A DNA stretch of 64,000 bases from Branchiostoma lanceolatum (taxonomy: Eukaryota > Chordata > Leptocardii > Amphioxiformes > Branchiostomatidae): assembly GCF_035083965.1 (NCBI RefSeq), contig NC_089738.1, positions 10,256,734 to 10,320,733 of the forward strand, in the 5' to 3' direction. Positions 24,474 through 53,100 of the stretch are shown piece after piece. A program made the translations under genes and the position numbers. Numbering within the stretch: the first letter of the stretch is position 1; each line of letters opens with the position of its first letter. The notes below the pieces were generated by a model. That model was not told the origin of the DNA. It did no database searches and saw only the letters and a list, made by a program, of their open reading frames with translations.

Positions 24474-26855
24474 ATGGCGTCTACATCCGAGCTCGCCTGT
24501 GTCTACAGTGCCCTAATCCTCCACGACGATGATGTCGCCATTACTGTAAGTTTTATTTCTTCACATTTTTCCAGCCTGATTGTCAAACATATGTTCATGT
24601 TTTGCTCATCGCAAGAACCGCGGTCAATTTTTGGGACCACTGGGCAGCGGACACTCTCAATCGCCAACAAAACGGGTTGAATCGACCCTCTAATTCTAAA
24701 AGGGGAGGGGGGCACCTGCACATGTTTCTATCCTGTACTCAACTTCACTTTGTAACCTTTCCCCATTCCCCGTCAGAAACATGTCAAATCTGTATTTAAC
24801 GTTGTCCTGTTGCTCTGTTCAATTTCTTTTTGGGGAGGTGCATGATTGATAAACCCGAGCAGCACGACTATCTCAGTATCTGATGATGATGATGGCTGTT
24901 TCTTATCACGATTATCTAATATCATATAAAACAAGACATTTTGTGAAGTAAAAATTCATTGAAAAGATATATTGTAAAAAAAGACATTATGTAGCTCGTA
25001 GTAGCTTTTACTTCTGGTCATTCTAAGAAATACATCAACCCCAAAATCTCTCCCCCACACCCCTGCTCAAAGTTATTTTTTACGGTCAGTGAGTCCCAAA
25101 TATTTATAATTTGTATCTTCCTCCTTTTTTGTAAGGGGGTGAAAGTCAGATGAAAGTGTCAAGGAAGCAGATGCAAAACTTTTGAATGAAATGTTTATGT
25201 CTTGTAACTTATACATAGAGATGAGACAGAAAATTGAAAATGTTAGATTGACACACAGGGAAACATTAACAATAGCGCCTATGTCACATTTGCTCGCGGC
25301 AGCTCACAATAATATATATTTAAATATATATGTGAAATTTCCATTTTAAAGTAAGCTCCCCGGCAGCTTCCGGCCGTAATTTCGCTTTTTGTCGCAAAAT
25401 CACACGAGGTCGCGAGGTCACATCGGAACTTCATATCTAAATGTATTACAACTCTTCGGACGTGTCTGAGCTTACCTCTCAATGGTACCCCCGTGCGGTT
25501 TTCGCCATCATGTTTATGACAAATCTACCTACAATTTGATATAAATTCTATATGCGTACCACGAAGAGAACTTATTCTACTAATTCCAGTTTGGTGGGAA
25601 GTTTGAATGGGCCAAATGGGACGCCATTTTCCGGTCTGTCGCAAAATCGCTAATTTGCATAAAATGGCCGAAATCTATTGTCGGTAGGTCGTTTCCCTGT
25701 GTGACAGTGACACCATTCCTTTATGATTATCTCTGCAGGGTGAGAAGATCGAGACCCTGATCAAGGCCGCCAACGTGGACGTGGAGCCGTTCTGGCCCGG
25801 TTTGTTCGCCAAGGCCCTGGAGGGTTCGGACATCGCGGCTCTCCTCTCTGCTGTCGGATCCGGCGGCGGTGGTGGCGGCGCGGCACCTGCAGCTGCTGCA
25901 GCTGATGCACCTGCTGCAGGTCAGGAAATATGTCTTTATTTTTGGCTACACCTCTGGGTTGGAGCCCTGGAGTGCAGTAGCATGATCATTGTTTTCATCT
26001 TTTTTTATCTCACACGAGTTAACGGTTTTGAAAGTTGCCACATATATGGCTGTTGATTGTTATTCTTTTGTTATTGAGCCCGAAGTGCATGTATTTCCTA
26101 CTTGGAACTGGAAGTTGGTATGTACTATTTTCCCCCAGGGTAGTGTCATTGCATTTACAGTGTTAAGAGTAGATTACAGGTAGTTGGTGAGTATCTGTAA
26201 TTGCGATCTATGCAAATGTGGGGTTTACATTCTTGACAGCAGAAGAGAAAAAAGAAGAGAAGCCGGAAGAGTCTGAAGACGAATCAGACGAAGACATGGG
26301 ATTCGGGCTGTTTGACGATTAGACCAAGCCTACTTAGCCAACTGTCCTTCTCCGAAGGCAAGGTTTGGCGTGAACTTGAACTCCCATAACTCTGGGTGTT
26401 TGTTTTCCGCCACTTCCATGGCTTGGTTGTCTCTACACCAAGTCCTAAATCTTCATTGCTCATTGTTAGAGAACTAACCTTTATAGGGATATCAGCATGT
26501 TACCATTCTATTAGGTGATGCTAGAAAGCTTCCCACAGAACCACTCAAGAAAAAAGAGTTGCTGTTTCCTGTATTGTCCTTTTGCTGAAGTGCTCATGTT
26601 GTTTCTTGCTGCTGACTTTGTTTTATCATTCCTTGTTGTAGTGTGATTTGAACTTGCAGTTCTCGTGCCACTTTTTTGTTTATTTATTTACAGATGGACT
26701 GTTAGTACCCAGTGGTTAATATCACTAGAGATAACCATTTTACACATCAGAAATCTTACAAATCCTTCTCTTTTGCAGAAAAAGAAGAGGAGAAGAAGGA
26801 AGAATCTGAGGAAGAAGAGAGTGATGATGACATGGGATTCGGACTGTTCGACTAG
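24474..26855 (+). CDS. RPLP1: 60S acidic ribosomal protein P1, with alternative last exons
   Basis: Exon 1 (24474-24545) encodes [20 protein letters not shown]..., and exon 2 (25739-25919) encodes ...[13 protein letters not shown]... followed by a Gly/Ala hinge. Both match animal P1 closely and join in frame. Two downstream exons can each complete the protein from the single leftover base of exon 2: exon 3a (26240-26322) and exon 3b (26779-26855). Isoform b is 109 residues and ends in the canonical [12 protein letters not shown]. Isoform a is 111 residues and ends [14 protein letters not shown]1 pairs with P2 on the ribosomal stalk; the acidic tail recruits translational GTPases. UQCRB lies convergently downstream. 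Gene identity is near certain; that both tails are expressed is inference. Confidence 0.96.
26240..26322 (+). other. RPLP1: RPLP1 alternative terminal exon 3a
   Basis: Preceded by TTCTTGACAGCAG, a tandem NAGNAG acceptor that allows a start at 26240 or 26243; both keep the frame (one extra Ala). It encodes [19 protein letters not shown]... and ends GFGLFDD then TAG at 26320-26322. Compared with exon 3b it carries an extra terminal aspartate and a Glu inside the usual triple-Asp. I see no clear AATAAA between this exon and exon 3b. Confidence 0.8.
26779..26855 (+). other. RPLP1: RPLP1 canonical terminal exon 3b
   Basis: Acceptor TTTTGCAG at 26771-26778. It encodes [19 protein letters not shown] and then GFGLFD and TAG at 26853-26855, the standard eukaryotic stalk tail. 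Confidence 0.9.
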
Positions 26856-30730: not shown

Positions 30731-33700
30731 TCAACCACGTCTGTACTGGACCCCGGGCAGGACACACAGCATCTCAAACAGCAGGTTAGCTGCAGTCAGG
30801 GCTGTGTTACCGGATGGGTCGTAGGCAGGGGAAACCTGGAGAAAGGCAGTCAAAATGAATGTCAAAGTACATAAGCCAGGGTTCCATCATCATATGTTTA
30901 TTACCCTTGCCTCCATAGTACTACTGTGTAAGCGAGTATGAGAGCAAGTGTAAACTAAACAAAAATGTCACATACCCAGGTTACTAAGTATATGTCACTG
31001 GTGCGACTTTGATCATTATTTTGTTTAAAAACATGCAGACATTGCGAGGTATACTGGCAACTCACAGACATACTGCAAGAAACAGCTTTTATCCACAGGC
31101 CCTGAGCCATTTTTTTTTTCATCTGCAATATATATACTATCAACAGGTGGCGCTGTTTAACATCTCCTATCTCTCCTTGCTTATTATGTTTCGCCAACGA
31201 AACATATTGTTTTTGTCAGGTTTCTTCTTCTCCTTCTTCTTCTCCTTCTTCTTCTTCTCCTGTCAAATCTTCAAATCGCTTCTTCTCGGTCGTCCGTCGA
31301 CCAAATAAGCTGAAATTTGGTATGGAGGTAGAGTTTGTGTATACCCCTAGACCCTTTTAAAATTTTTTTCATATAAGTTTTTAAAATGATTTTATCGAGG
31401 TTTTTTGGTCATTTTCCGACAAAAGTCGCACATTATGGCCTCCAGTGCCGTGGTGTTCAAACCTAAGGACCTGAAATTTGGTTTAGTTGTGCATTGGATA
31501 TTTACCCAAAGGACCCCATAATTTTTTTTGGTATACACTACTTCAAAATGATTTATTTTGCAATTTTTTGATGGAATTTTTGGTTATTTTCTCACAACTA
31601 GGTCATCTTGTAACATAAGCCCTCCTACTGTCTGGGAGTTAAAACCAAGCAGATGTCAGGGGGTACCTCTACTATAAAAATGGTATTACAGAAAGTTATA
31701 TGTACCTTATGTTACATGGTACGGATGTTATATTTGAGATGTAGGTACCTATAGGACAGGTGAATACACCTGACAATTAATTATGATAATGAGGACCAAA
31801 TTTGCATAATGTATGCATAAAGTTGTATGTCCCTTACCGTACAAGCTGCGGATGTCATCTTTGAAATGTAGGTACCTTTAGGAAAGGCGAACACACCTGG
31901 CCATAAATTATGCTAATGAGGACCTCATTTGCATGATTTATGCGTAAACTTGTAATTCCCTTACCGGAAAAGCTGCAGATGTCAGATTTGAGATGTACGT
32001 ACCGTTAGCAAAGGTGATCACACCTGGCCATGAATTATGCTAATGAGGACCTCATTTGCATAATTCATGCATAAACTTGTATTTCCCTTACCGTGAAAGC
32101 TGCGGATGTCATCTTTAAGATGTAGGTACCATTAGGAAAGGTGAATGCACCTGGCCAAAAATTATGCTAATGAGGACCTCCTTTGCATAATTCATGCAGA
32201 AACTTGTATTTCCCTTACGGTACAAGCTGCAGATGCATAATTTATGCATGATGTTGTATTCCCCTTACTATAAAAGCTGCGGATGTCATCTTGAACATGT
32301 AGGTACATGTAGGAAAGGTGAAAGCACCTGGACATAACTTATGCTCATGAGGACCTCATTTGCATAAATTATGCAGAAACTTGGATTTGCCCAGGAGTTA
32401 TTTTGGGACAGCCCACTTCTTGCATGAGGAGTATGGGCGAAACATCCTGAATTTGCTCTTAAAGCAAATGACGGCCAGTCTAGTTCTACAGTGTGTTTTC
32501 AATTGAACATAATAACTTTAAATACATGTGAGTCAGGATGCCCGGAAATCACCTTATACTTTGTAAATCTCTGTTATCTTCATGATACCTTGTACTTAGA
32601 TCCCACAAAAAGCTCACTTCCTTAAGTCTTACGATTTCTTATCTCTTGAAGTTAAAAAAAAATTAAGACACTGTTCTCACCTCCACCAAGTCCCCTCCCA
32701 CCAAGTTGAGCCCACGACAGCCCCTGATGATTTCCAGGCCCTGGTGCGACGTCAGTCCTCCTATCTCAGGGGTTCCTGTCCCCGGTGCGTAGGCCGGGTC
32801 CAGGGCGTCGATGTCGAAACTCAGATAGACGGGACCGTCCCCCATCTGTGCACGGACCTCCTCCATCAGTGGCGCCAGAGACTTGTACCAAACCTCTTCA
32901 GCCTGGACCACTCGGAAACCCTGAAAAAACAATGTTCTTAAAATTACTTAGCTGATACTGCCTTGCATGTTATCATTTACTCTAGGCTGCATTGTTTGAT
33001 CTCCAAGCAGATGTGTAAGGACCTGGCTCACATTCTCACTGATTTACAATCATGTGCACTGTTTTTGCAACTGCTACCAGGAAAAGGCGAACAATGTGCA
33101 TATAGATAAAAGTACTTAATGACTTTTGCAAAAACACTGAAAATAAGCAGGATCCTTAACAACTACTTGGAGTAAAGCATTATATAGATTGGGACATTTC
33201 CTTGTTCTCTTACCGAGAATACTGTAAAAGACAGAGTTGATATGACCGAGATTTTTTTTCTCTTTGCGGTGGGTTCATCTATACAGAAACTTTGCATCAA
33301 TTACAATGCCACTCATTAAGATGAAGGTGTCTATATCATGTATGGCAAAGAAGGCAGCAAATCTAATTATGTACAATGCATATTATTTACAGCTGCAAAG
33401 AACATCTTCATGAGTCCATCTGATTCCTTAGTAATGAGACGTTTAAATCATTGGATTGGCAAGCATACATGCTTAAAGTATGCAGATAAAAGTAATTATT
33501 TCTGTACCTGACTTCTCGACCAATCATAGTCGTAATCAGTGTACCCTGTTCCACGCAGCCCTATCTGAATGACTCGGCTACAGTCCAGTAGACCTTCCTC
33601 CACCGCACGATAGAATGGCGTACCGTGGGCTACCTTCTCGTTGCCCATTTGGTCGTGTGTGTCTGCATGTGCGTCCACATGCACTAAGCCAACTGGACCA

Positions 33701-36534
33701 TGCTTATCCTGTAATATAGAATATATATATACACTATTGCTATATGAATATACAGAAACAAGTGTGCAGTATACACCATAAATGATTCCGTGATCCTTCC
33801 CTGTATATTGAGAAAGAGATTTCTTTTACTGAAGGTTTTTGACAAATGTATTATTTTGGACTCTGAGAGATTTTCCAGAATTCTTAAGACTCAAAGGTTG
33901 TGGGAATGCAAAATTTCACATCTGGCAAAATACATTGAACTTTGAATAAACCTGAAGAGATCAAGGGAGGGATCACTAATCATTCAGGGTGGATGCTGCA
34001 CCAGTACTGATCTACCTGTTGCCTGCTCCACCCATAATCGTCATCGGAATACCCCGTGCCTCTCAGCCCTATCTGTATAACTCGTTGGCAGTCAAGGAGG
34101 CCCTCCTCCACGGCCCTGCGGAAGGGCGTGCCGTGGGAGATTTTTTCTCCAAGCTGCTTGTCGTTGGTGTCAGCGTGAGCATCAACATGAACTAAGCCAA
34201 CAGGACCATACTTGGCCTATAAAAGGCAACATACACAAATTGGTGGGAATCAAAAGGGCTGATATTTGCATATTCTCCAAGCAGAGATTTTCATGGGGGG
34301 GCAGGGGGGGGGGGGGGGGGGCTAAGAAGTAGCAGTGATTTTTTTGAGGGAGGGCAACGTTAAAAATCCCGACCTAGTCCTTGCCCTTCCGATTAAAACC
34401 TCTGCTTGGAGAATAATATTTGCTGGCAAATGCAACCATTTTTCTCCAAAAATATTTCAAAGATAGCGATGTGAAAACTATAACAAATTTTTCACCCATG
34501 TGCTAAGATCCCATTTCTCCCATATTATATTTCTTTAGCAATACCTTACTTCTTGCTTAATCTTTTTAAGTTTTTCTATACTTTCTATACCACTTACAAC
34601 TCTTTGAACTGAAGGCATGCTAACTAAAGTCCCCATCCTAGAAGCTACTTACCTTAATTGCTTGTAAGATGGGGTAGGTAAGAGTGTGGTCACCCCCCAG
34701 GGTTAGAGGCTTGCACCCATTGGCCACGATCTTAGTGTAGGCATCTCTGATATTCTTCACAGCATCCTTCAAGTCGTACATGTTGAGGAAGACGTCTCCG
34801 ATATCCGCGACTTGGAGGGAGTCATATGGTGCAGCACCTGCGAAGAGATGTACATGTAGATGTAAGACATTGTACGAATACAAATAACCTTTGTGTGTTT
34901 CACATAACTGATGACCTACTTTCTAGGCATTATAATTAACACACCAGTTTTTCTTCTACACAAAACCAGACTGTAAGATTTGATCTGCTCACTGAATTCT
35001 TTTTCAATGAATGTGGTGGGATCTTAAACATGCTCGAGTCAAGGCGCTACTCTTCTCAAACACAGGGAGTCACTCTCTACTTTTCATCCAAAAGAATGTC
35101 CCAAGTTATTAGATACTCATTTCCACCTGAGTAGAGTGCATTTACAGTAAATGCAGAAATTTCGCAGTGGTTTTATGTTCACTGTTTTTGCAGTGGACTC
35201 CACAGCGCAAACTTAAAGCCACCGCGAAACTTTTTCCCCACCTATGACTCACTTTCACAGTATTGCTACTTTTGTACAAACGCATTTTACTTAAAACCAC
35301 AGTCAACACTCAATTTTCTCCCTACCGTGAAATAAAAACCATGCAAACTTAAATGCATTTACAGTAGTTTCCACCTGTCAGTGAATAGAATGAGAAAAAA
35401 GGTGTAAATTGCCTTTCCTTTCTATCACCATAAGGCCACATAGGCATCGCAAGCACAAAAAATGTAAGTCTTGTCAGGTTTGTTTGAATAATTCTTTGTC
35501 AAATTGTCAACGTTTTGATGTATGGCCTTATTTAATATGTGAATGTTCTACTGTTTGTTGGATGGCAGCAACATTGGCATCACTGTCTGGGTACCTACAT
35601 GCGTTACTGTGTTGCACTTTTGATGAAATAAAAAAACAAGCCTTGTAACAGTATAATACGATACTAGTTCATACCTGTCCAGTTGTTGTATGGTCTGAGC
35701 ATGACCGACTCGGTGCGAATCTGTCTCGGGCCGAATCTGGTTCCTGACCGGTTGGACGTACCGATGTCCAGCGGAATCCCAACAAAGCAAGCATCCAGAC
35801 CTGTGTGTGTATCAAAATATCAATAATCATAATTATTATATTTAGAATTTTAATCCCCCCCGCTGATGATGTCGATGGATAATTTATCTATCATCTTCTG
35901 GTGCTTTAAATAAAGGTTCACTGCAATCCAACATGGCTCAGATAACATCACAAGTCAAGTCAAGTTTATTGCACATGAAAGCCTGTATATGGGGACAGGC
36001 ACCACTACTAGAGACAGCCTCCTTTGGCGTTGCCAAAAAAAACGAAAACGGGGTCATGCATGGGGCATATGCCAGTTGCCAGGGCCAGTTGCCAACACAT
36101 GTTTTTGGAAGGAATGGGGAGCTCACTGTCGGAAAACGTGACAATTATTTAACGAAGCTTCGGTACTGGAATAAAGACGTTCCGTACTGGAATTCTTGTA
36201 CGGAACTTCCTTCCGTACTGGGGGCCGAGTATCGGCGGCATTTTCTCCACGGGTTCCGTACTGGGCGCCCAGTAAGGAGCCGGTTACATCTGTATATTTG
36301 CAATACTGATCATGACATGCATCTTGGACAGAAAGTTTTACCTTGAGTGTCGTTCTGGACGGGTAAACGCATCATTGAAGCGATGCCGCCAGGCCTGGGC
36401 AAGTCGTTCCCGCTGGGGGGAACATTGAACTTCTGCTGCGAGGCGCTGCTCGAAGACAATGGTCTTGATCCTTCAAGGAAGACAGAACTTCTTCGAAGTG
36501 TCGTCGCAACAGCTCGCACTGCTGCAACCGCCAT
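30731..36534 (-). CDS. AGMAT: Agmatinase-family mitochondrial ureohydrolase
   Basis: Exons: 36534-36342, 35800-35675, 34837-34653, one of two alternative exon 4 copies (34216-34016 or 33708-33508), 32920-32681 and 30835-30731. With a single exon 4 the coding length is 1,050 bp, 349 residues (human AGMAT about 352), all phases consistent. The Ala/Arg/Ser-rich N-terminus (MAVAAVRAVATTLRRSS) looks like a mitochondrial presequence. Manganese-binding motifs in order are GGDHT (exon 3), DAHADT (exon 4) and SFDIDALDPAYAPGTGTPE (exon 5). The C-terminus SPAYDPSGNTALTAANLLFE is typical. The family hydrolyses guanidino substrates (agmatine, guanidinobutyrate or similar) to an amine and urea; which substrate applies here cannot be read from sequence. 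It differs from arginase in its overall match. Confidence 0.95.
31185..32445. mobile_element. About 1.26-kb repeat element with internal 125-bp tandem array
   Basis: Ends carry ATGTTTCGCC (left, within the hairpin TATGTTTCG-CCAA-CGAAACATA at 31185-31206) and GGGCGAAACAT (right, 32436-32445). After a (TTC)n tract and about 450 bp of unique DNA, a unit of roughly 125 bp starting AAGCTGCGGATGTCATC repeats at about 31849, 31970, 32095, 32223 and 32274 (the last spacing short). Each unit carries ATTATGCTAATGAGGACC and ATTTGCAT. It lies in the last AGMAT intron. Confidence 0.8.
33508..33708 (-). other. AGMAT: AGMAT alternative exon 4B
   Basis: 201 bp, phase 0 at both ends, acceptor ATATTACAG, donor GTACAG. 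It encodes 67 residues beginning DKHGPVGLVHVDAHADTHDQ and ending DYDYDWSRSQ. The metal-binding DAHAD and the later HG are intact. It aligns without gaps to exon 4A with 52 of 67 residues identical. Confidence 0.93.
34016..34216 (-). other. AGMAT: AGMAT alternative exon 4A
   Basis: 201 bp, phase 0 at both ends, acceptor CCTTTTATAG, donor GTAGAT. It encodes 67 residues beginning AKYGPVGLVHVDAHADTNDK and ending DDDYGWSRQQ. It separates from exon 4B by a 307-bp intron. Both copies have intact borders and no stop, so neither looks like a dead duplicate. Confidence 0.93.
34270..34415. mobile_element. 146-bp MITE with 8-bp target duplication and G-run
   Basis: Terminal inverted repeats TATTCTCCAAGCAGAG and CTCTGCTTGGAGAATA, with direct repeats ATATTTGC at 34262-34269 and 34416-34423. 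It contains G runs of 7 and 18 bases at 34295-34321. It lies in the AGMAT intron just upstream (in transcription) of exon 4A. Single ends with the same CTCCAAGCAGA motif occur at about 10876, 33001, 38190 and 50607. Confidence 0.88.
35138..35369. mobile_element. MITE, same family as the 28.5-kb copy
   Basis: Begins TTTACAGTAAATGCAGAAATT and ends CTTAAATGCATTTACAGTAG. The blocks CGCAGTGGTTTTATGTTC and GAAATAAAAACCATGC match the copy at 28534-28720 in reverse orientation. It lies in the AGMAT intron between exons 2 and 3. Confidence 0.82.
35945..36000 (-). mobile_element. 3' tail of a retroelement
   Basis: Read on the minus strand this is a CAATAAACTTGACTTGACTTG end, matching the style of the (CTTGA)n tail at 55573-55592. 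Only the tail is clear, and the upstream body is not delimited. It lies in AGMAT intron 1. Confidence 0.5.
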
Positions 36535-40200: not shown

Positions 40201-41259
40201 TTTTAGTAATAGGTCTGCTCTGGATGTCCCGTGAGAGACATGCATATTTGCATTGGTTTAGTTTCGAAAAGGTGGGGTATTTATAGAAACAAATAAGGGC
40301 ACCCCCAGGACGGCTGGACAATGTTGGTGCAAATTTGCTGTTCCACTGGGCCACAGTAAATACATTCTTTGGATGACACCAACGCGCGCATTGACTTTTG
40401 TCTAGTTTCGAAAAACAACAGCAAATTTTCTTACCCTCCAGAGATGACCAACAAACAAGTAACAAAAAAAATCTGACAAGAAGATACCGAAAATTGGAAA
40501 ATATGTCGTATTGTATTCTTGATTGTACTTATATAAGTGCCAATATAGTAAGATAGAGGCATGATGTAGTTGTAGAAGGGACACTTGTTCGGTAGTTTTA
40601 CTGGTAGAAGCGGCAGTAGTATGGTATTTTTGAGTGTTGTTACCAATTTGTAAGAGGTGATACTAGGCCATTACACTAGTGTCAGTTTTGCACTTGTCTA
40701 GTACAAGAATAAAAGCTGTAATACCATGTGCGGTTTGGAAATTTAGGCTTGTTTTTCTTTTCTCACATTAGATTTAGAGTATACAGATGAAGTCCATAAA
40801 ATTTACTTGCTGTGGCCTAGTGATACAAAGCAACAGACGTAGAGGGGGTCATCGAGTGCCTACTTTGATATCCCCGCGGATTTGTAACTTTATTCATGAT
40901 ACATGTACCATATGATATCCAAATCATTCTTTTTGAAGGTTAGCAGGTTATATTTCTCCCCCCCCCCCCAAACATCACAAAGAATTTGCTGCGCTAACAT
41001 TAATTATTCATCTTTGGATTATGATATCGCTGCCATCCGTGCGAGGCTGTTGTTTATTTCTCTTCGGTACTCATGATAAGTTCAAACAAGCCTTCGATGA
41101 AGAAAGATATACATGTACCTGTAATCATGTTACTAATCTGTTGCACCTGCAAACGTAATTATAAGGCTTATAATCGGTGATTGGTCTATCCCGATTAAAG
41201 ATAATTGTTCAATGATTACTGATGCCAATAAGTGGATACAATTAGGGCACACCTTAGAG

Positions 41260-41266
41260 TATATAA
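41260..41266 (+). promoter_or_regulatory. TATA box of small secreted peptide gene A
   Basis: TATATAA lies in AGAGTATATAAGTCCG, about 80 bp before a GTAAGT donor at 41343 that ends a short non-coding first exon. The block from about 41060 to the donor is similar to the region before gene B. Confidence 0.65.
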
Positions 41267-41383
41267 GTCCGTCCCCAACCGCGCTCTTCATTCCACTACT
41301 TCATCTTCTCAAGACGCAAGTCGCACAGCGAAGATACAAAAGGTAAGTCCTTCTTACTTTATCTTGTGGCTACAAATTGCCGC

Positions 41384-41530
41384 AACGCGAGGTCCCGGGT
41401 TCGATTCCCGACGTTTTGGGCTTAACTTTGTGTCCTTGGGAAAAGCATCCTAACTTCAGTTGAGAAGGCGATGGATAGAGACTCATGATACCGTACCTTC
41501 CAATACCGTGCCCTAGACCTAGACATTGTT
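41384..41530 (+). mobile_element. SINE fragment in intron 1 of peptide gene A
   Basis: B-box GGTTCGATTCC at about 41399, then TTTGTGTCCTTGGGAAAAG and CTTCCAATACCGTGCCCTAG, the shared SINE body. The equivalent position of gene B carries the same insert, so it predates the tandem duplication. Confidence 0.7.
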
Positions 41531-41797
41531 CCTACGGACTTAAATAGGCTAAGGGACTGCCTTTACCTTTAACTTTTTTCCCATGGCAATCGTCGTTGTG
41601 AAAATGTGACCCCAAAACCTAACTCTCACATTCCTTCTTACTCAAGTTGTAACATGATAAAAATCGAATTTGTACATCTGACGGAATCAGAAGAAAGACC
41701 AGATTAGTCCTAACTAAGCCCTCTCTTCAAAAAAGAATGACCAGGTTGGTCCTGTAACTGAGTCCTGTCTGTAACGTTTTCCAGGCAAAGCTGCACC

Positions 41798-43102
41798 ATG
41801 AGGCTGTTCGTTGGTACCCTGCTCGTGACCATGCTCGTCGTGGCCATGCTCATCGACGACTCGGAGGGGTGGAGGCGCAGGCGCAGGCGTAGGCGTAGGA
41901 GGAGCCTGCAGGCCGATGGCGATGCCGATGGTACGATCAGCTTATCTAATCTTGATAAGATAGAGCAGATGTATCGATGGTATGTTAGATATAGGGAAAA
42001 TAATTTTTGCCAGAGGTTTGACCAGTACCACATGGCTTCCTTTTACTTCCCGCAGACTATCTCTCCTGGTGAACTATTTTTTTTCCTAATTCCAGTATCC
42101 AGACCTCCATAGGAAGGTCCGGTAGAGGCTAAGATAGCCGTACAAAGGGCCAGAAAAGAAAGAAAAACAAGCCAGCCACACATTTTGCTTGGAATTACGT
42201 TTTGTACAAACATGTGCATGTCAGCCACAGCTTTTTGGCGTCTTATTCTGATTTGATACGAACAAAAAACAGCGTTACTTTGAGTCCCCGAACTTTTATT
42301 CATGTTTCCACTAGATGTATTTTCTTAATGATTGTCTTTATTGGTTGTGTTAACAGGCGAGCTGATGGAGGTCGTGCAAGAGGCCAGGTCCCTCCTGGAG
42401 GAACTGGATGACCTCGATGACCTCGATGACATGGCTGCAGAGCATGCGCCCATGGAGGCAAGGGGCTATGAGGAAGACGGTAAGAAACCTGTTAAGCTCT
42501 GTTTCGTTAACGATGACAGCAATGTGGACCTTCTAGTTTGAATATACGTAAAAATCATTTGACTAGTAGTCTCCTTCGCAGACTTCTTGGACCGCCGGTG
42601 TTTATTTTTTGGCTGAAGCGATGATTCAAAATTTCCAACAAGATTCTCTAATGCCGGGAGCTATAGGGAGTTTCGCCTAGCTTGTATTTACACAAGCTTT
42701 CGGCCGGAGGTTACTGACCCCCGGTCACAGGACCGGCTGGCCACTAGGAGCGCGATTCGTCAGACTAGAGTTTCGCCGCGCCGATTAAGAACAAAACTGT
42801 TTATCCGGTCCCTCGCCGGCGCTCCAAGAGGTCTACCAAGGAGGCTAACGTAAAAAGGCATTTATGCAAGCTTAAGTGTGACATTTCATGAGGTGTTTGT
42901 TTATGCGACGAAATGGTTTACATTATGCAGATGTAACTCGAAACTTTAAAAAAAGGAGGCCAAGGCGTATTATGATGACTTGGATGCTTCACGATTCTTG
43001 AAGCAACCGCCCATGTCATAACACTAGATGAGAAATATGTAAATATTAAGAAACGTTTTAATACATTGATTTGTCCCTTTTTTTACAGACAACCGGAAGT
43101 AG
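41798..43102 (+). CDS. Small secreted Arg-rich/acidic precursor, copy A
   Basis: Coding exons 41798-41930, 42357-42479 and 43089-43102 join in phase to 89 residues. A non-coding exon ends at 41342 and splices to 41785. Residues 1-24 form a clear signal peptide (MRLFVGTLLVTMLVVAML...). Then comes W followed by ten arginines, SLQADGDADG, and an acidic helical tail (VVQEARSLLEELDDLDDLDDM...) ending GYEEDDNRK. The last exon codes only four full residues before TAG. A polyadenylation signal AATAAA is at 43568-43573. I do not recognise the family. The signal/cationic/acidic order recalls tunicate-type antimicrobial peptide precursors or a propeptide hormone; this is inference. Gene B is a tandem paralogue. 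Confidence 0.82.
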
Positions 43103-43109
43103 AACTGGC

Positions 43110-44500
43110 TACCGGAAACCAGCCGGCCCGGACTTCCAAAGTTCGTCTTTTTCAAGGCACCAACAACCAAGATTGACCAGGCAATATTTACTAATATCAT
43201 AACTCATATATTCATGTTCCATAGTTGTGTACTAACAAGCCTGTAGTAACTATATATGAAGGTGACTGTCCGACGTCTAAATGATATCTAGCCTATTTTT
43301 CAGTGTTTCGTTTCAAGAGTCCCAGACGAGAAATGTCAATGGCATGCCTTTCAACCAATAAGATAACTCATCCGTTAATTATTCCCGGTGTTTAAGAATG
43401 GTTCAACATTCTGTAACTGTAACTGTAACAGTTACTTTACTTAACGGTAACTGTAATACAACCGATTAATTGTGAACGAAAACTGACAAACGTACAATGT
43501 GACGTCGATGTCTATGCATTAAGGTGGCAAAGTTGTAATACTCTGTGCGCTTGGCGATCTTTGGTTGAATAAAACTTGCAGGTGCAACTTTGTGTTTTTG
43601 ATCATATTCTTTTAAATCTAGATAGTCATTTAGTCAAAGAGGGAAAGAAAGATCTAGAGTTACATCAATCAGCTCAAGACTTATGTCCGAAAGTAGACGG
43701 CGGGGTAAGTCTATCTTTCGCGTGTCCAAACAAAAAGAGCGCATTGGTCAACACAAGTCACTAGTAGTATATGCTTCTTAGAATCTGTAAACTACTTGTG
43801 TAGAGACAGACCTTGAACATATACGTTCTATAGACTGAAATGGGTTACAAACAAGTTAGAAAAAAACATCGATCGGGAATCGACCGCCCATCGATCAGGC
43901 GTCGACCGCATACAGTAATTTGGCCTCTTTGTAGCCTTGCTACGATATTTTTTTTTAATTTTTTTTTTTTTAAATTCTATTTTTTAATTTCCTTGGACAG
44001 GCAGGGTGGGGAACCCACTGTTATGAAACATTTGACGATTTGCAGAAAACAAACATTCCAGTAGTTTCCTCTTTGTTATGCCGATTGATACCTATAATCA
44101 TCGCAATAATCGCATAATTGTTGAATTAAGCATTTCTCTGATCCCGTCACTAATACAATTATTGTTAAATTAGGCGAATCCTTGTTGTTGTACAGACCCA
44201 CAATTATGGCAATGACAACTATCTAATGGTGTTTAAAAAGCTATCATTTGTTTTAATGAACAGTTAGAATTGTCCAGATGCGATGTAATTGTTAAACCTT
44301 TAATCGTTACGTGTCACGTCTTCTGACAACTGCCAGGTAGCCTCTGTCAAAATGTTTTTTTTTCTTCACCCAATAGGGTGAGGTAGTGTTTTTCTTGTCT
44401 CTGTTTATGTCTATCCGTGTGTGTGTCAGTCTACCGGTCTGTGTTTCTGAATGCAAAGCAGAATGGGTAATTACATCATAGGCACTACTTGTGTGAATGG
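43110..44500. other. 3' UTR of peptide gene A and duplicated spacer
   Basis: 43103 to about 43590 is 3' UTR. 43600-44260 corresponds, with substitutions and indels, to about 47160-47800 behind gene B, so it belongs to the duplicated unit. No independent gene is seen. Confidence 0.55.
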
Positions 44501-44867
44501 GGTGGAAGTTTGCTATGTCTGATTGCATGATAATGACTCTTGATAAGCTCAAACAAGCCTTAGATAAAGAAAGATATAATTGTAATCATGTTGTCAGTTC
44601 TTACCGACCAGCGACACCTTAAAAGGCCCATAATATGCAACCTTGACTCGTAAAGACCTTGGGAAAGGGACCGATTATTAAAGATAATTGTTCAATGATT
44701 GCTAATGACAATAAGTGTATACAATCAGGGTACACCTTGACGTACTAAAGTCCGTTTCTGACCGCGCTCTTCATTCTACTACTTCACCCTGTGAGGCCGC
44801 AAGTCACACTTGCTGTGATCTACCAGACCGCACCGAAGATATAAAAGGTAAGTCCTTCTCACTTTAT

Positions 44868-45015
44868 CTTGTGTTGCTGAGTGGCTTAAGGCAAGAAGAC
44901 GAAGGGAGGTCCGGGGTTTGATTCCTGGCGTACCTGGCTTAATTTTGTGTCCTTGGGAAAAGGAACCTATCTTCAGTTGGGAAAGCCGAGAAGGATGGGC
45001 TCCACCATCCAATAC
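44868..45015 (+). mobile_element. SINE fragment in intron 1 of peptide gene B
   Basis: A-box-like GCTGAGTGGCTTAAGGC at about 44876, B-box-like GGTTTGATTCC at about 44914, then TTTGTGTCCTTGGGAAAAGG. Same position as in gene A. Confidence 0.7.
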
Positions 45016-45226
45016 CATGCCCCAGACTCTGCTCCTTATCTTTCACGTTTTCCCCGTGACAATCGTCGTTGTGAACAATATGCCCCCCAAATCATACTCT
45101 TACATTGGTTCTTACTTGAGTTGTTAAATGAAAAATATATTTTGTACTTCTGAAGAAATCAGAAGAAAGACTGAGAGTAGTTCTAACTGAGTCCCCTCTT
45201 TAACGTTTTCCAGGCGAAGCTGCACC

Positions 45227-46683
45227 ATGAGGCTGTTCGTTGGTACCCTGCTCGTGACCATGCTCGTCGCGGCCATGCTCATCGACGACTCGGAGGGGTG
45301 GGATCGTAGTGGCAGGCGCAGGCGTAGGCGTAGGCGCAGTATCCGTAGGACGCTGCAGGCCGATGCCGATGGTACAATCAGTCTACTCTCGATAAGATGG
45401 AGCCGATGTGTCGGTTGGGCTTGTTTTGCGGGTCTTTTGTAGCGTTTTCAGCATTTCTAGACACTAGAGAGCAATTGTTTCCTGCTCCTACTCTCTCCAC
45501 AGAAAAAAAGGTGCATCACTAGAGAGAGGTAGCCTCTACCAGACTAACTACGCTGGCTATACGCTCTTTCTCATTTAAATGTACACATTTTGTAACTTCC
45601 GTTACCGTTTGAAATAAGACGTTCCTGACATTAGGATTTGCCACATATAAGGTGCCAAACTGTCATTTTTAAGACGACTTAAAAACTTTTCTAGCTTTTG
45701 AAAACGACAGTTTGGTACCTTCGCGGACGGATTGCAGAAATTCCTTTTTGTAATTCTAGGAATTCTTGTAAATCGTGCGTAAAATATAGTATTAAGCTCG
45801 CTCATGAAGCTTTCCCCAAAACAAGCCGGACCAATACATCTGCTTGGAAATTACATTTTGTACAAGCATGTGTGAGCAATAGGCCACTAGCTTTTTGGCA
45901 TCTTATTCTGATTTGATACATAAAAACAGCGTTAGTTTGAGTCCGTGTACTGTCATTCATGCCTCCACCAGATGTATTTTCGTAGCGTCTGCCTTTACTT
46001 ACTGTTAACAGACAAGCTGGTGGAGGTTGTGCAAGAAACAAGGTCCCTCCTAAAGGAACTGGATGACCTCGTTGACCTTGATGACATGGCGGCAGAGCAT
46101 GCACCCATGGAGGCGAGGGGCTATGAGGAGGACGGTAAGAAACTTGACAAGTTCTGTTTCGTCAACGATGAACACAGTTGTGAACCTTCTGGTTTTAGTA
46201 TACGTAGAAATAGCCTCCTCCGCTTGGAGCGTCGGCGTTTATATTTTTTTGTGGGGAGGGGGGCAGCGGCGATGGTACACGATTTTCAACAGGGCTTAGG
46301 TTTTCTAATGTCGGAGTAGGGAGTTTCACCGCCGCCAATCAAGAACATAACTGTCTCTCCCCTGCTGACTCTCGAAGATTTTAGTCTGCAAAAGAGGCAT
46401 TGAAATGCATGCGCATATATGACAAGTGTGGCATTTCATCGTGTGCTTGTTTGTTTGTTTATGTGACGAAATGGTTCACATAGTTTACATCATATTGTGA
46501 CGTAGTAAGCAGACGTACAGATTAATATTCTAGAAAGGGGATAAAGGCGTATTACGATGACTTTGGTGCTTCACCATTCTAGAAAAAAAACGCCCATGTC
46601 ATAACACTAGATGAGAAATATGTGAATATTGACAAACGTTTTGATATATTAATTTGCATATTTTTACAGACGACCGGAAGTAG
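45227..46683 (+). CDS. Small secreted Arg-rich/acidic precursor, copy B
   Basis: Coding exons 45227-45371, 46012-46134 and 46670-46683 join to 93 residues; the upstream non-coding exon ends at 44847 and splices to 45214. The signal peptide is identical to copy A except for one Val/Ala change. The cationic part differs: after GW it reads DRSG, eight arginines, SIRRTLQ. The acidic tail is nearly the same (VVQETRSLLKELDDLVDLDD..., ending GYEEDDDRK). AATAAA is at 47128-47133. The TATA box of copy A is replaced here by TACTAAA (44742-44748). Conserved leader and tail with a variable middle suggest the middle is the active product. Function unknown. Confidence 0.82.
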
Positions 46684-47199
46684 AGCTGGCTACTGGAAAC
46701 CAACCGGCCCGGACTTCCAAAGTTCAATTCGTCTTTTCAGTTAACACACCAGCAACCCAGATCGACCAAGCGACATTTACTAATCTTATAATCCACATAT
46801 TAATGTTTAATAGCTGTGTACTACCCACCTCTACTGTAGTAATTATATATCAAAGTGACTTTCCAACGTCTACATGATACCTATATTACCATACTTTCAT
46901 ATATTTTACTTTGCCTTTCAACCATTCAAATAAATCATTCTTCAATTGTTCACGGTGTTTAAGAAAGATTCAACATCCTGTAACTGTAATGTTTACTTCA
47001 TTTAACTGTAATTATAATACAACTCACTAGATGTAAACGAAACTGACAAAAGTACAATGTGACGTCGATGTCGATGCATTAAGGTGGCATAGTTGTAATA
47101 TTCTGTGCGCTTGGCGATCTTTGGTTGAATAAAACTTACAGGTGTAACTTTGTGTTTGAAATTATTTTGTATTTAAGTTTATAATAGATAGTCCTTAGT

Positions 47200-49340
47200 C
47201 TGGGAATAAAGAAAAAGAAAAAAAGGAAGAAAAAAAGATGTAGACTTACAGCTGGCTAGCCTAAGACGTCCGACGTCCAAAATTAATCGACAAGGTAAAT
47301 CTTGTGTGTCAAAACAGATCGAGTGCATTTACTGTCAACACAAGTCATTATATTAGTATATATCAGTATATAATCTAATACAATCTTCAAACTACTTGTT
47401 TGGAGACAGACTTTGAGAATATGCATCGTATCAACTTGAAGAAAAAGTGGGGTAGAAACAAGTTAGAAAATGCATCGATTGTGTATCGACGGGCCATTGA
47501 CCAGGCGTCGGCCTCCTTTTTAGCCTTGCTGCGATATTTTGTCGACAGGCTGAGGCCCCACTGTTGTGAAGCCTTTGACGACTTGCAGAAAACATACGTG
47601 CTTGTAATTATCTCTTTGTTATGCCGATTGATACCTATGATTATCGCAATGATTGCTACAAAATTGTTGAATTAACCATTCGGTTTTCGTTGATCCTGTT
47701 TCTATTACAAATATTGTTAAATTAGGCGAATCCTTGTTGTTGTGCAGACCCACAATAATGGCAATGAGAACTTTCTAATAGTGGTTAAGAATACCTTCAA
47801 CAATTTGGTTTGATATGTTTTCTCGTGTGTGTTTGTGTGTATGTCCGTCTGTCTGTTAGCTAGATCCAAGGAGGAGAACGTCTAGAAGCCTTTGAAAATG
47901 ATAGCCATCACTCATCATATTTATCTGGTCAGATCAAGGACATTGGATATATGATAGCTTAAATACCCATAGCTGACCTGTCGACTGGCATGGGCTTCCA
48001 CGAAGGAATATAATTGCGCTCCCTCTAGAAGTCGCTAGGTGACAGTATTTCCACACACATGTACACATAAAAAAGACATCAATACACATCTGGAATCTAT
48101 TCCCAAAGAAACCTTTCTATGAAAACGTGTCATCTGCGTGTGGGATGAGGGAATGTATGTCCGTGTGTTGTATGTGTAGTTTGTTGTTGTGAGAAAATCG
48201 TGCATTTTTCTGCTCGTTGTAATTATCCCAAATAGACATTTATTAATGCCCAAATCTTCTGCTAGGTTTTGACGCCATTACCAAATAATCTGCTATGTTT
48301 AGCCTCATGTGCTATAGCGGGAGATTTGCTCGGAGATTTTGTGGAGGTAAGTCGTACATTTTGTTTATCCATGGAAACTGTGTGAAACTGTTAGTGAAGT
48401 GCACGTATTTCAGATAACTGAGAATGATACAAGACTAATCAACTGGTTTGTAGGTGTGTCATAGCCAGGCTTTGCATACATTATCACGTTTTGTCAGTAA
48501 AATCTAGACGTGTAAATATCGAGTTTTGAATGCATGATGCTCGTCATCAGTGAGCTACTATTATGGTGGTCTCTATCTACTAACAGTTTGGACGGGATAT
48601 GTTACCCTGTACGCTATTTCTACTTCATCCAAAGAGTCGAGGTATTAAATGATTTCCTTGTCTCAGTTTGGTATATGTCTCTGTGTGTGTGTGTCTGTCT
48701 GTCTGTGTTTCTGACTGCAAGGCAGTATGTGTAACTGCAAAGCAGTATGGGTAATTACATCATAGGCACTGGTTGTGTGAATGGGGTGAAGTTTGCCATC
48801 TCTGATTGCCTTGTTTTGAAACAAGCTCAGAATCCTAAGATATTGTCTACCAAAACATGTTTGTTTATATTGCATACCCAGTAAACTGCCTTGTGGCGTA
48901 ACACACCAGGTTTGTACTGAGGAGTACAAGCTGCATATCCTGACAGATTTATTTGATCCACTCACTCCAGGAAGGACCCCTACTACTTATACTGGTACTC
49001 TTTTCGATAAGTGTTGTGGGTTCTTTTACATGCTTGATGTGTGGCTCTCTTTATACATGGGACCTCCATTTAACTAACGTTCTATCCAAGGGACGTCCTC
49101 AACTGAAGCTATTAAGTTCTCATTTAAACCTGAGTGAAATATGTTCCAAGGGAACAACGTCAACGGGACAAGTCAGGGGACGCAGGACTCGAACCCAGGA
49201 CCTTTGGGTCTAGGCCAAACACCCTGCCATTGCACCACTGCGATGCCATCTTCTTGACCTAATACATGAGTTTTGATAGTATGTACATTTTAGGAACTCC
49301 AAAGTAACTGCCACAACACTAAAAGACTGTGAATATATTT
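47200..49340. other. Spacer between peptide gene B and the filamin gene
   Basis: The left part is the end of the duplicated unit (to about 47800). A 91-codon frame at 47400-47675 is not open in the matching region behind gene A and is not called. A block at about 48715-48805 resembles 44440-44525 (TGGGTAATTACATCATAGGC). The SINE at 48.95-49.26 kb follows. Confidence 0.5.
48950..49260 (-). mobile_element. tRNA-derived SINE with near-complete tRNA head
   Basis: On the minus strand, about 49246-49175 reads as a tRNA-like head: A-box AGTGGTGCAATGG, an anticodon-like stem TTTGG/CCAAA with loop CCTAGAC (would-be anticodon TAG), and B-box GGTTCGAGTCC. The acceptor and T stems do not pair well, so it is not a working tRNA. 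The family body (CCCTTGGAACATATTTCAC) follows. Confidence 0.75.
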
Positions 49341-50175: not shown

Positions 50176-53100
50176 TTAATATCGACTACTCCCCCTTGTC
50201 CTAGGTATGGATTGTCCCATCATGGGAGGTAGGTCGGGTTGTCCCATTGGTGGTCCCATGGGTTCAGAAGAGGGGGGAGCGAGGAACACCCTGAAGGGAC
50301 TTCCAGGGACGTGTTTGTCGGACCACTTCACAGTGATGTCATAGTTTCCAGGGTACGTCGGGTCGTACGACACGGCTATGACACGATCGTTCTCAGCCAA
50401 TGGGTTCATGCGAACCTTGAAGGCACCTGGAGAAAGACACAACGCCATGTTTAATCAAAGGCACCATACTACTATTACAAGTAATGCCTGGCATATACAT
50501 TTTATACATTCTTAGTTAAATCATGTGAACTTATTTTAATTTCTTAAAAGTTGAGGTAAATCATTTCAATGTGCCTTCTACACATGTACAGTAGCTATTT
50601 TGCATCTCCAAGCAGATGTGTGTAAAAGAATTTGAGGAAAGATTGAAAATATCACAAAAGCTGTCTAGAATATTTCAAGAAATCTCTGGATCTACATATG
50701 CATCTGGATCCAAAATATAGATATGTTCTTGATGCTTAAGGCCTTAATCCCCCTCCCCAAAAAGTATTTCACCTTCCTTTGATTGGCACAGATAATGATG
50801 AAATGCAACCGTGTTAAGCACACTTTTGGAGTAAGGATCCCGCTTACAAAGAACAGTCAGTAGTGGCCCATCAAGGTGTGAAAATCAAACCTTACAGTTC
50901 AGTCTTACATGTAGCTTGTAGTTGTACTCACTATACAAAACTGGTGTACTGTACCTACTGTTTACCTGAGTTATGCACAACAAAGAAAACCTCAGCACAT
51001 TACCTTTTGGTCCCTGAATCCTGACAGACAGATCGCCCTCCCCAGCTCCACGTGTGTCACAGAGGAAGTTCCCGCGGTAGTAGTTGATCATCCCGTTGTT
51101 CAGTCCTGGTCCAAACACTTTCACCCTCTTGTAGTCAGACTTGGAACTAACGTCAAAAACATGGGGACTCCCTTTGGAGTGAGAGAAACAAGAAGGAAGA
51201 TGTAAGAAGACAAAATGAGTTTGAGAATATTAGATATCAATCATGTACTGTATGCAGTTAGCAGTTAACATGTAGTTGGCTCTATGGTTGCTATCAATGA
51301 TTTAATGTAGTATGGTCAGCACATTCCTTTCTCATGTTAGCAACATATAAAGGAATTTACAAAACAAAAAGCTTCTTTATACAAAGAAACAGGGTCATGT
51401 CCTTGGTGCTGAATGGTGTTCATTTGGATAAAGGATCCCTCTAAAAGACCATCACTCCTATGTTTTTTGCATATTGGGATAAAAATTATGCTCTCTTTGA
51501 AAGTTGCGTTTCTGCAGCATTCTTTTCAGAAGAAAGATAAACAAAAAAAGGTATTCTTTCTGTAATCAATTCAAGCTTTCTAGTAAAGGCAAGTACATGT
51601 AAGACCATAACTTACTGTTGATTTTGAAATATTTACTAGTACAGTGATAAAGATAAAACATCTTTGTGGTGAATATGCTTATCTATACAATGTATTACTA
51701 CTGTACCACGGAATTGTTTAAACTGTGAACTTATTTAAAACATGAGTTCGTTCTTTCCCCATCCACGCATGCAGAAAGAAAGAAAATTTATTGTACCTGG
51801 AGCATGTTTCTGGTCATAGACCACCTCCAGTGTGTGCCTGCCCTTCTCCTTGGGGGTGACCCTTAGCTCATAGGTGCCATTCTCAAAGTCAAAGAGTTGC
51901 ACATCTGAGGACTTGCTTGGCCCAAAACACCTTGAAGCCAGAGTCCCTAAAATGCGAGGTACAATGTTGATGTTACATGTGTATTCATCATCAGTAAGTG
52001 AAGTAAAACATGTAACACAATTGCAAGGGTTAACACCAACTTGTCTGACATAACATTATTTTCTTACTTGTGCTGTATTGTCTTATTCGCTTTATGCAAA
52101 GCAACCTAGCTAGACTTAATCAGCATGAAATCTGAATCATAGAATTTTGAACATGCCCTGTATGCATAATTTACACCCTCTACCCCCATGTGAAATTACT
52201 TGGCATACATGACTACTATTCAATGATGATTACATGGCCATATATAAGACAATGGTACCACAAAGCTATTACAGTTCAGACAACTGTTAATGATAAGACC
52301 TAGGCCTGTAATCAGCACGAAATCTGAATTGTAGAATTCTTAACGTGCTGTATGCAGATTTTACATACCCCCATTCAATGCATTTGACAGATTTAATTGG
52401 ATGGCCCTAAAACAACTCCAATGCAAAGCTAGTACAGAACATACAAATATTTATGTAATTGTTTAAATGCATAAGTTCTTACCTCCCCCAGGGGCTGGTC
52501 TTGTGTCCACGTTAACTCGGAATGCTGTCTTGGCGTTGGCGTACTCCGGCAGCCCCTTCAGGATAACATCACCTGGCTGTGCATGTAAGTACGGACATCA
52601 TCATTTTCTTGTTCTTTCTCTTTTGTCATCCTCAATTGAGATGAAGCATAAGGTTTTTAAGTAGCTAGTAGTGCAATGCGGCTTTGCTACTGCTCACATG
52701 TTTAACCAAGCACACATGGTCTCCCCTACTCTTCTCAAGAAATGTGTTGGGTTCTTTTATGCAGAGTCTGCAGGTTAACCTCTTTTAAAGGTTATAAAAG
52801 CTCCCTTAAAAGCTCCCTTAAAAGCTGTCTAATACAGGGGGTTGCTAGCTTGATGTCACCATCCAAAAGGATGGATGCAATCCCTTACAACTTATCAAAC
52901 ATACTGTATTTTCAGTATACATTATGAAAAATATATTGCTCGGCCATGCACAGCATGCTATTACGTATTCTATACTTAGGAAGTAAAACATGTTTGAAAC
53001 CTAAGTAATTGCTCAGTTGCTCATACTCTCTGCAGTTAAATTCCACATGGAGAAGTGTGTATTCTACATGCATATTGATAGTGTTTATAGGCATGTACCG

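Follow-up and report, generated by a model that had tools for sequence, protein, structure and literature searches.

We propose that a single ureohydrolase gene of Branchiostoma lanceolatum likely gives rise to two isoforms of the enzyme through the substitution of one homologous exon for another, with an altered entrance to the active site. The gene runs from 36534 to 30731 on the minus strand of the 64,000-nucleotide stretch of NC_089738.1 that was analysed here as a whole (the window, position 1 being its first letter), with exons in the order 1, 2, 3, 4A, 4B, 5 and 6. The exons and two features of the introns are as follows.

Exon 1: 36342..36534, minus strand, 193 bp, start codon at 36534.
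Exon 2: 35675..35800, minus strand, 126 bp, encodes Arg100.
Exon 3: 34653..34837, minus strand, 185 bp, GGDHT including the first metal-ligand His (His157).
Intron 3 hairpin: 34271..34415, minus strand, 27-nt arms (89% complementary) enclosing a long C run.
Exon 4A: 34016..34216, minus strand, 201 bp, phase 0/0, loop A TNDKQLGEKIS.
4A-4B intron: 33709..34015, minus strand, 307 nt, imperfect fold-back.
Exon 4B: 33508..33708, minus strand, 201 bp, phase 0/0, loop A THDQMGNEKVA.
Exon 5: 32681..32920, minus strand, 240 bp, FDIDALDP, which supplies the two remaining metal-ligand Asp residues.
Exon 6: 30731..30835, minus strand, 105 bp including TGA.

The original prediction described 4A and 4B as exons of equal length and phase with intact splice sites, 52 of whose 67 residues are identical without gaps. 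The coordinates, lengths, phases and splice sites were confirmed, with both exons open in the expected frame and flanked by AG acceptors and GT donors, and recomputation gave the same identity. When exons 1 to 3 were spliced in silico to either 4A or 4B and then to exons 5 and 6, the product was 349 residues long with a single terminal stop, reproducing the length predicted for joining either copy to exons 3 and 5. Inclusion of both copies yielded 416 residues, in frame and without an internal stop, so that the reading frame by itself would permit both to be included, as had been argued; skipping of both left 282 residues, also in frame. The intron 3 hairpin is situated 54 nt upstream of exon 4A. 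Scanned against Rfam at gathering scores, the window gave no matches.

The pair has the attributes of tandem-duplicated exons, in that 4A and 4B are adjacent homologous internal exons of the same phase, are interchangeable and possess complete splice sites. At the nucleotide level 138 of 201 bases are identical, and the 63 differences fall 16, 9 and 38 at codon positions 1, 2 and 3. Nucleotide similarity was detected between 33505-33629 and 34013-34137 and between 33652-33725 and 34160-34233; it ends 3 nt beyond the donors and 17 nt beyond the acceptors. Analysis of 4A against 4B by the Nei-Gojobori method gave a pS of 0.77 (35 of 45.3 sites) and a pN of 0.18 (28 of 155.7), with a dN of 0.21. 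The Jukes-Cantor dS is undefined at this pS, and the lower 95% bound of 0.63 corresponds to a dS of at least about 1.4. Because the synonymous sites are saturated and protein divergence is low, the duplication appears to be old and both copies seem to be constrained. A freely drifting copy would be expected to accumulate a dN of about 0.7 on its own branch, and the total is 0.21; this comparison, made between two sequences only, suggests that both copies have probably been held by selection since the duplication. As judged by sequence matching, the similarity of each exon by itself to the guanidinobutyrase structure 3nio (E 1e-27 for 4A, 1.1e-26 for 4B) is far beyond chance. The claim that the gene carries two complete, interchangeable exons with metal-ligand residues thus stands, in an intact gene in which both are apparently constrained. 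No third copy of exon 4 was detected in the window when the isoforms and the window's reading frames were used as tblastn queries. We also considered an echo of a second haplotype or of the assembly, which is unlikely given the pS of 0.77 and the loss of similarity just outside the exons.

The gene had been labelled an agmatinase, and part of that assignment survives. Both isoforms (A, with exon 4A, and B, with exon 4B) match the Pfam Arginase family (326.3 and 322.6 bits; cut-off 22) and pass the NCBIfam agmatinase models TIGR01230 (227.0 and 217.6 bits; cut-off 174.3) and NF002564 (315.3 and 318.8; cut-off 302). However, the best whole-protein structural match is the Pseudomonas aeruginosa guanidinobutyrase GbuA (3nio; E 1.8e-144 with isoform B), with guanidinopropionase and the agmatinases 4dz4, 7lol and 7lba ranking below it. 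Furthermore, the human protein annotated as agmatinase is described, in the available part of PMC9772407, as hydrolysing linear guanidino acids while being virtually inactive with agmatine, and its mature form as sharing 60.2% identity with GbuA. Agmatinase is therefore a doubtful name for the gene, and the proximity of 3nio together with the substrate profile of human AGMAT suggests that the product is of the guanidino acid hydrolase type. Arg100, which is encoded by exon 2 and is hence common to both isoforms, aligns with GbuA Arg72 (human Arg105), identified in the same portion of PMC9772407 as the carboxylate-capping Arg, and the position is Arg in all 80 of the bacterial relatives compared (the best 80 of 432 confirmed).

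Exon 4 encodes three of the metal ligands as well as the catalytic His, and the two published specificity loops fall within it. The metal-ligand and catalytic residues are retained in both copies: Asp180, His182, Asp184 and His196 are intact in 4A and 4B, and His157, Asp271, Asp273 and Glu315 are intact in the exons that the isoforms share. The loops, as delimited in the accessible text of PMC8125230 and PMC9224512 (loop A, Thr154-Asp162 of Escherichia coli agmatinase or Ile129-Leu140 of arginase; loop B, Thr188-Asp191), were mapped through the alignments with the solved proteins to residues 17-27 and 53-56 of exon 4, respectively. Loop B is identical in the two copies. In loop A, 7 of 11 positions differ, compared with 8 of 56 elsewhere in the exon (Fisher p 0.0015; for this and the Fisher tests below, the loop limits came from the literature, and the differing positions were already known when the limits were taken and the tests run). 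The differences between 4A and 4B are thus concentrated in specificity loop A.

The consequences of changing this loop are described in the portions of two papers available to us. In arginase, loop A and Asn130 are specificity determinants; Asn130 takes part in binding the carboxylate of the substrate, replacement of this Asn by Asp admits agmatine, and an enzyme with a chimeric loop A accepts agmatine only (PMC9224512). In E. coli agmatinase, changes in loop A chiefly raise the KM (PMC8125230). Exon 4B has His at the position of Asn130 (exon position 18) and Tyr in place of the neighbouring Arg of HGTPFR (exon position 33), substitutions that, by this reading, should alter substrate binding. 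A simple switch of 4B to agmatine was nevertheless downgraded as an explanation, since the capping residue Arg100 is common to both isoforms, which argues against 4B having abandoned acid substrates. The SpeB-type mark, Tyr or Trp at the position equivalent to Asn130 (Tyr in E. coli agmatinase 7lol, Trp in Burkholderia thailandensis agmatinase 4dz4), is found in neither copy, 4A having Asn and 4B His. Position 33 of both solved agmatinases is Tyr, as it is in 4B, and the guanidino-acid and clavaminate enzymes 3nio, 3nip and 1gq6 have Asn at 18 and Arg at 33. A further residue of SpeB-type agmatinases, Trp68, is contributed by the neighbouring subunit according to the accessible part of PMC8125230.

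We compared exon 4 with bacterial relatives, taking the 80 best of the 432 confirmed, whose best segments show 64-74% identity. Among these 80, Asn at exon position 18, Met at 21, Phe at 22 and Arg at 33 are present in every sequence, and Gly at 23 and Ala at 27 in 79. The Asn in loop A and the adjacent Arg characteristic of the bacterial group are present in 4A and absent from 4B, in which these two invariant residues are replaced by His and Tyr; for the human enzyme, PMC9772407 treats the loops in general terms only, so these residues may not define the animal members. Overall, 4B departs from the bacterial consensus at 18, 22, 23 and 33, 4A departs at 21 (Gln for Met), 22 (Leu for Phe) and 27 (Ser for Ala), and both depart at 58 and 61. 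Because 4A is itself off consensus in loop A, departure from the bacterial pattern is not peculiar to 4B, which, unlike 4A, retains Met21 and Ala27. At least 95% conservation among the best 80 of 432 was observed at 32 of the 67 exon positions, and the copies differ at 5 of the 6 such positions in loop A versus 1 of 26 outside it (p 0.00017). Dereplication at 85% identity left 18 of the 80 relatives, and in this smaller set 4 of 5 conserved loop A positions differ versus 1 of 22 outside (p 0.0014). Mean identity over exon 4 to the best 80 of 432 is 45.7 of 67 residues for 4A and 44.2 for 4B; 4A is closer than 4B to 63 of the 80 and less close to 4, in a set that was chosen and ranked with isoform A and whose members are mutually related and redundant.

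A wider sample of the arginase family comprised 73 matches in 13 genomes, from which 30 loci were taken, 28 of them with a readable motif. Thirteen of the 28 are GbuA-like and are largely the same genes as in the set of 80. His at position 18 was seen in none of the 28, and position 33 is Arg in 21, the others having Trp, Phe, His, Tyr, Gly, Gly and Ala. When 29 of the 30 loci were scored with each exon, 4B outscored 4A against three (L100, L102 and L109), equalled it against L097, and scored below it against the remaining 25, including the 13 GbuA-like members. All four of the named loci have the HGxxF motif without the following Arg, and the motif of the first three appears, by reading, to be agmatinase-like. 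The human protein presumably has Thr at position 18 and lacks the bacterial Asn, which would weaken Asn as a mark of the animal enzymes. Matches turned up in 585 plasmid records, with 60-80% identity in 41 of these; viral contigs searched with exon 4B gave four pattern matches and no relative.

Our preferred account is that each transcript would include one copy, and that 4A or 4B joined to exons 3 and 5 would give the same 349-residue enzyme with a different entrance. The 4A isoform would be a standard guanidino-acid hydrolase; the 4B isoform would be active too, but with a different range of substrates or a different affinity, given the change of Asn to His at the Asn130 position and of Arg to Tyr in HGTPFR. 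It is possible, if rather doubtful, that both isoforms are made and the substrate is unchanged, with the swap tuning expression, stability or hexamer assembly, or being nearly neutral. The metal ligands, catalytic His, Glu315, loop B and capping Arg are indeed identical in the two isoforms, and the specificity loops are reported, in the part of PMC9772407 that was available, to be unconserved between human AGMAT and SpeB or arginase 1, which indicates that the region tolerates change. Yet loop A hardly varies among the guanidinobutyrase-like bacterial relatives (best 80 of 432), and it is there that the copies differ most. We regard it as very unlikely that one of the copies, more plausibly 4B, is a leftover that transcripts seldom or never include. 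Of all the donors in the gene, that of exon 4B scores lowest (4.2 bits), its acceptor tract is TA-rich, the exon departs from conserved residues at 18, 22, 23 and 33, and 4A is nearer to 63 of the 80 relatives; but the frame and splice sites of 4B are intact despite synonymous saturation, a copy free of constraint should have raised the total dN above the 0.21 observed, and the bacterial Met21 and Ala27 are kept in 4B, unlike in 4A. That the two exons are included together in a 416-residue protein is extremely improbable. Such a product is compatible with the frame, and the intervening 307-nt intron has ordinary GT-AG ends; however, it would place a second stretch of three metal ligands in a compact fold, and GbuA aligns over the whole of the single-copy protein, leaving no room for it.

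The substitution of one exon for the other calls for some means of exclusion, and three familiar ones do not apply here. Frameshift and nonsense decay would not act on the double product, which stays in frame. Steric hindrance operates when the donor and branch point are within roughly 50-60 nt, and the 4A-4B intron is 307 nt long. Incompatibility of U2 and U12 introns does not fit the donors, GTAGAT and GTACAG, and no U12-donor-like motif was present in intron 3 or in the 4A-4B and 4B-5 introns. As for docking-selector pairing, whole-intron duplexes among these three introns, a weak test in a single species, gave values no different from those of 60 shuffles (z -0.2 to -0.9). The 4A and 4B donors scored 6.2 and 4.2 bits, the lowest two of six (the others 7.0 to 12.4), on a consensus computed from donor base frequencies; U1 duplex energies do not single them out as weakest (-8.0 for 4A and -7.1 for 4B, compared with -6.8 and -7.2 for exons 1 and 2). 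The TA-rich acceptor tract of 4B has 12 pyrimidines in 20, and that of exon 2 has 11 in 20. Splicing-factor motifs were counted in the six introns, and in these raw, unshuffled counts only the C run of intron 3 stands out. In the preferred account, exclusion would probably be set by regulation of the weak donor sites, possibly helped by the fold-back of the intron between them.

The halves of the 4A-4B intron align in inverted orientation with a score of 65, compared with a maximum of 42 in 500 mononucleotide-shuffled controls. The arms extend from the 15th intron nucleotide to 55 nt before exon 4B, and a candidate branch motif, TTCAT, lies 37 nt before 4B; in the folded intron, only some 30 nt of free RNA would separate the 4A donor from this putative branch site. 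It is conceivable, and in our estimate unlikely, that the fold-back blocks 4A-to-4B splicing by drawing the 4A donor close to the 4B branch region in this way; the stem could also promote the same splicing. On balance we lean towards the view that the fold-back is a mere decayed inverted-repeat element with no role in splicing. The window contains other strong fold-backs, since 1 of 208 fixed 307-nt tiles reaches the score of 65 and another nearly does (tiles 31929 and 19035), a count that is too low because the fixed grid splits fold-backs. In addition, the mismatches between the arms are, by eye, mostly not wobble pairs, and the 4B-5 intron is also more stable than its shuffles (MFE z -3.0 against 60 dinucleotide shuffles, with -0.3 for intron 3). 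Against this view, the MFE z of the 4A-4B intron is -3.5 on the same scale, and the fold-back follows closely on the 4A donor and ends shortly ahead of the 4B branch region.

The individual elements could be combined into a broader scheme, in which splicing retunes the substrate of a chordate enzyme, mixed hexamers form and a hairpin enforces exclusion; as a whole we consider it quite unlikely. In this scheme 4A would specify a guanidino-acid hydrolase, 4B would have moved toward agmatine or a different guanidino acid, mixed 4A/4B hexamers would provide further activities because neighbours share active sites, and an RNA hairpin would shorten the effective intron below the spliceosome limit. 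Ureohydrolases commonly assemble as hexamers, each active site being completed by an adjacent subunit, according to the available portion of PMC9772407, and one bacterial heterohexamer is built from two different subunits (PMC11271267, likewise available in part); together these make mixed 4A/4B hexamers conceivable.

Exon swaps of this type are already known, the nearest in effect to the proposed one being those of coq-2 and CYP4F3. As described in the accessible text of PMC7434440, exons 6a and 6e of coq-2 in Caenorhabditis elegans and other rhodoquinone-making animals are two mutually exclusive internal exons that remodel a catalytic core, one typical of the family and the other distinct. 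The enzyme in that case is a polyprenyltransferase, and alternative use, regulation and a product switch have been demonstrated, whereas for the ureohydrolase they are predicted only. Exon choice likewise switches the substrate specificity of a single enzyme in CYP4F3, in contrast a cytochrome P450 for which a tissue-specific switch has been measured, and the authors of the same text state that exon swaps clearly changing the specificity of an enzyme core are rare, with few examples (PMC7434440). In FGFR IIIb/IIIc, also in the amphioxus Fgfr, tandem homologous exons swap the ligand-recognition segment, but the protein is a receptor and is regulated by Esrp; amphioxus Fgfr also has an isoform that contains IIIx and IIIc together (all from the available part of PMC5703972). 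GbuA (3nio) and human AGMAT/GDAH have the metal ligands and capping Arg of the ureohydrolase, and no alternative exon was found described for them in those portions of the sources that could be consulted. Judged by titles and the openings of abstracts, the open-licence papers searched yielded no description of the ureohydrolase 4A/4B pair. Mutation of loop A by hand turned arginase into an agmatine-only enzyme, as the accessible part of PMC9224512 relates. The swapped segment contains that loop, so nature may have run a similar experiment within one gene, which may make two versions of an enzyme with different substrate preferences. Such a pair would bear on the unsettled substrate of the animal "agmatinases".

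Several other features of the window were recorded. Intron 5 of the ureohydrolase gene holds a tandem array of 127-nt units with AT-rich palindromic parts (31689-32391), and related pieces are found near 19.5-19.9 kb. On the plus strand, an acidic ribosomal protein P1-like gene, with an upstream exon near 25740-25920, has two homologous candidate last exons (26243-26322 and 26779-26855), each encoding an acidic MGFGLFD tail and a stop; this pair would be a second tandem exon duplication within about 10 kb. Direct repeats at 41193-44222 and 44622-47775, spaced by about 3.5 kb, have similar reading frames and about 50-94% identity in the pieces listed, and among these frames is a small peptide that looks secreted, MRLFVGTLLVTMLV, after which comes an Arg-rich stretch; from their sequences they are a probable tandem duplication. 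Lastly, several mutually similar segments (33-44% identity) on the minus strand at 51738-63670 look like the repeated immunoglobulin-like domains of a putative filamin-type gene.
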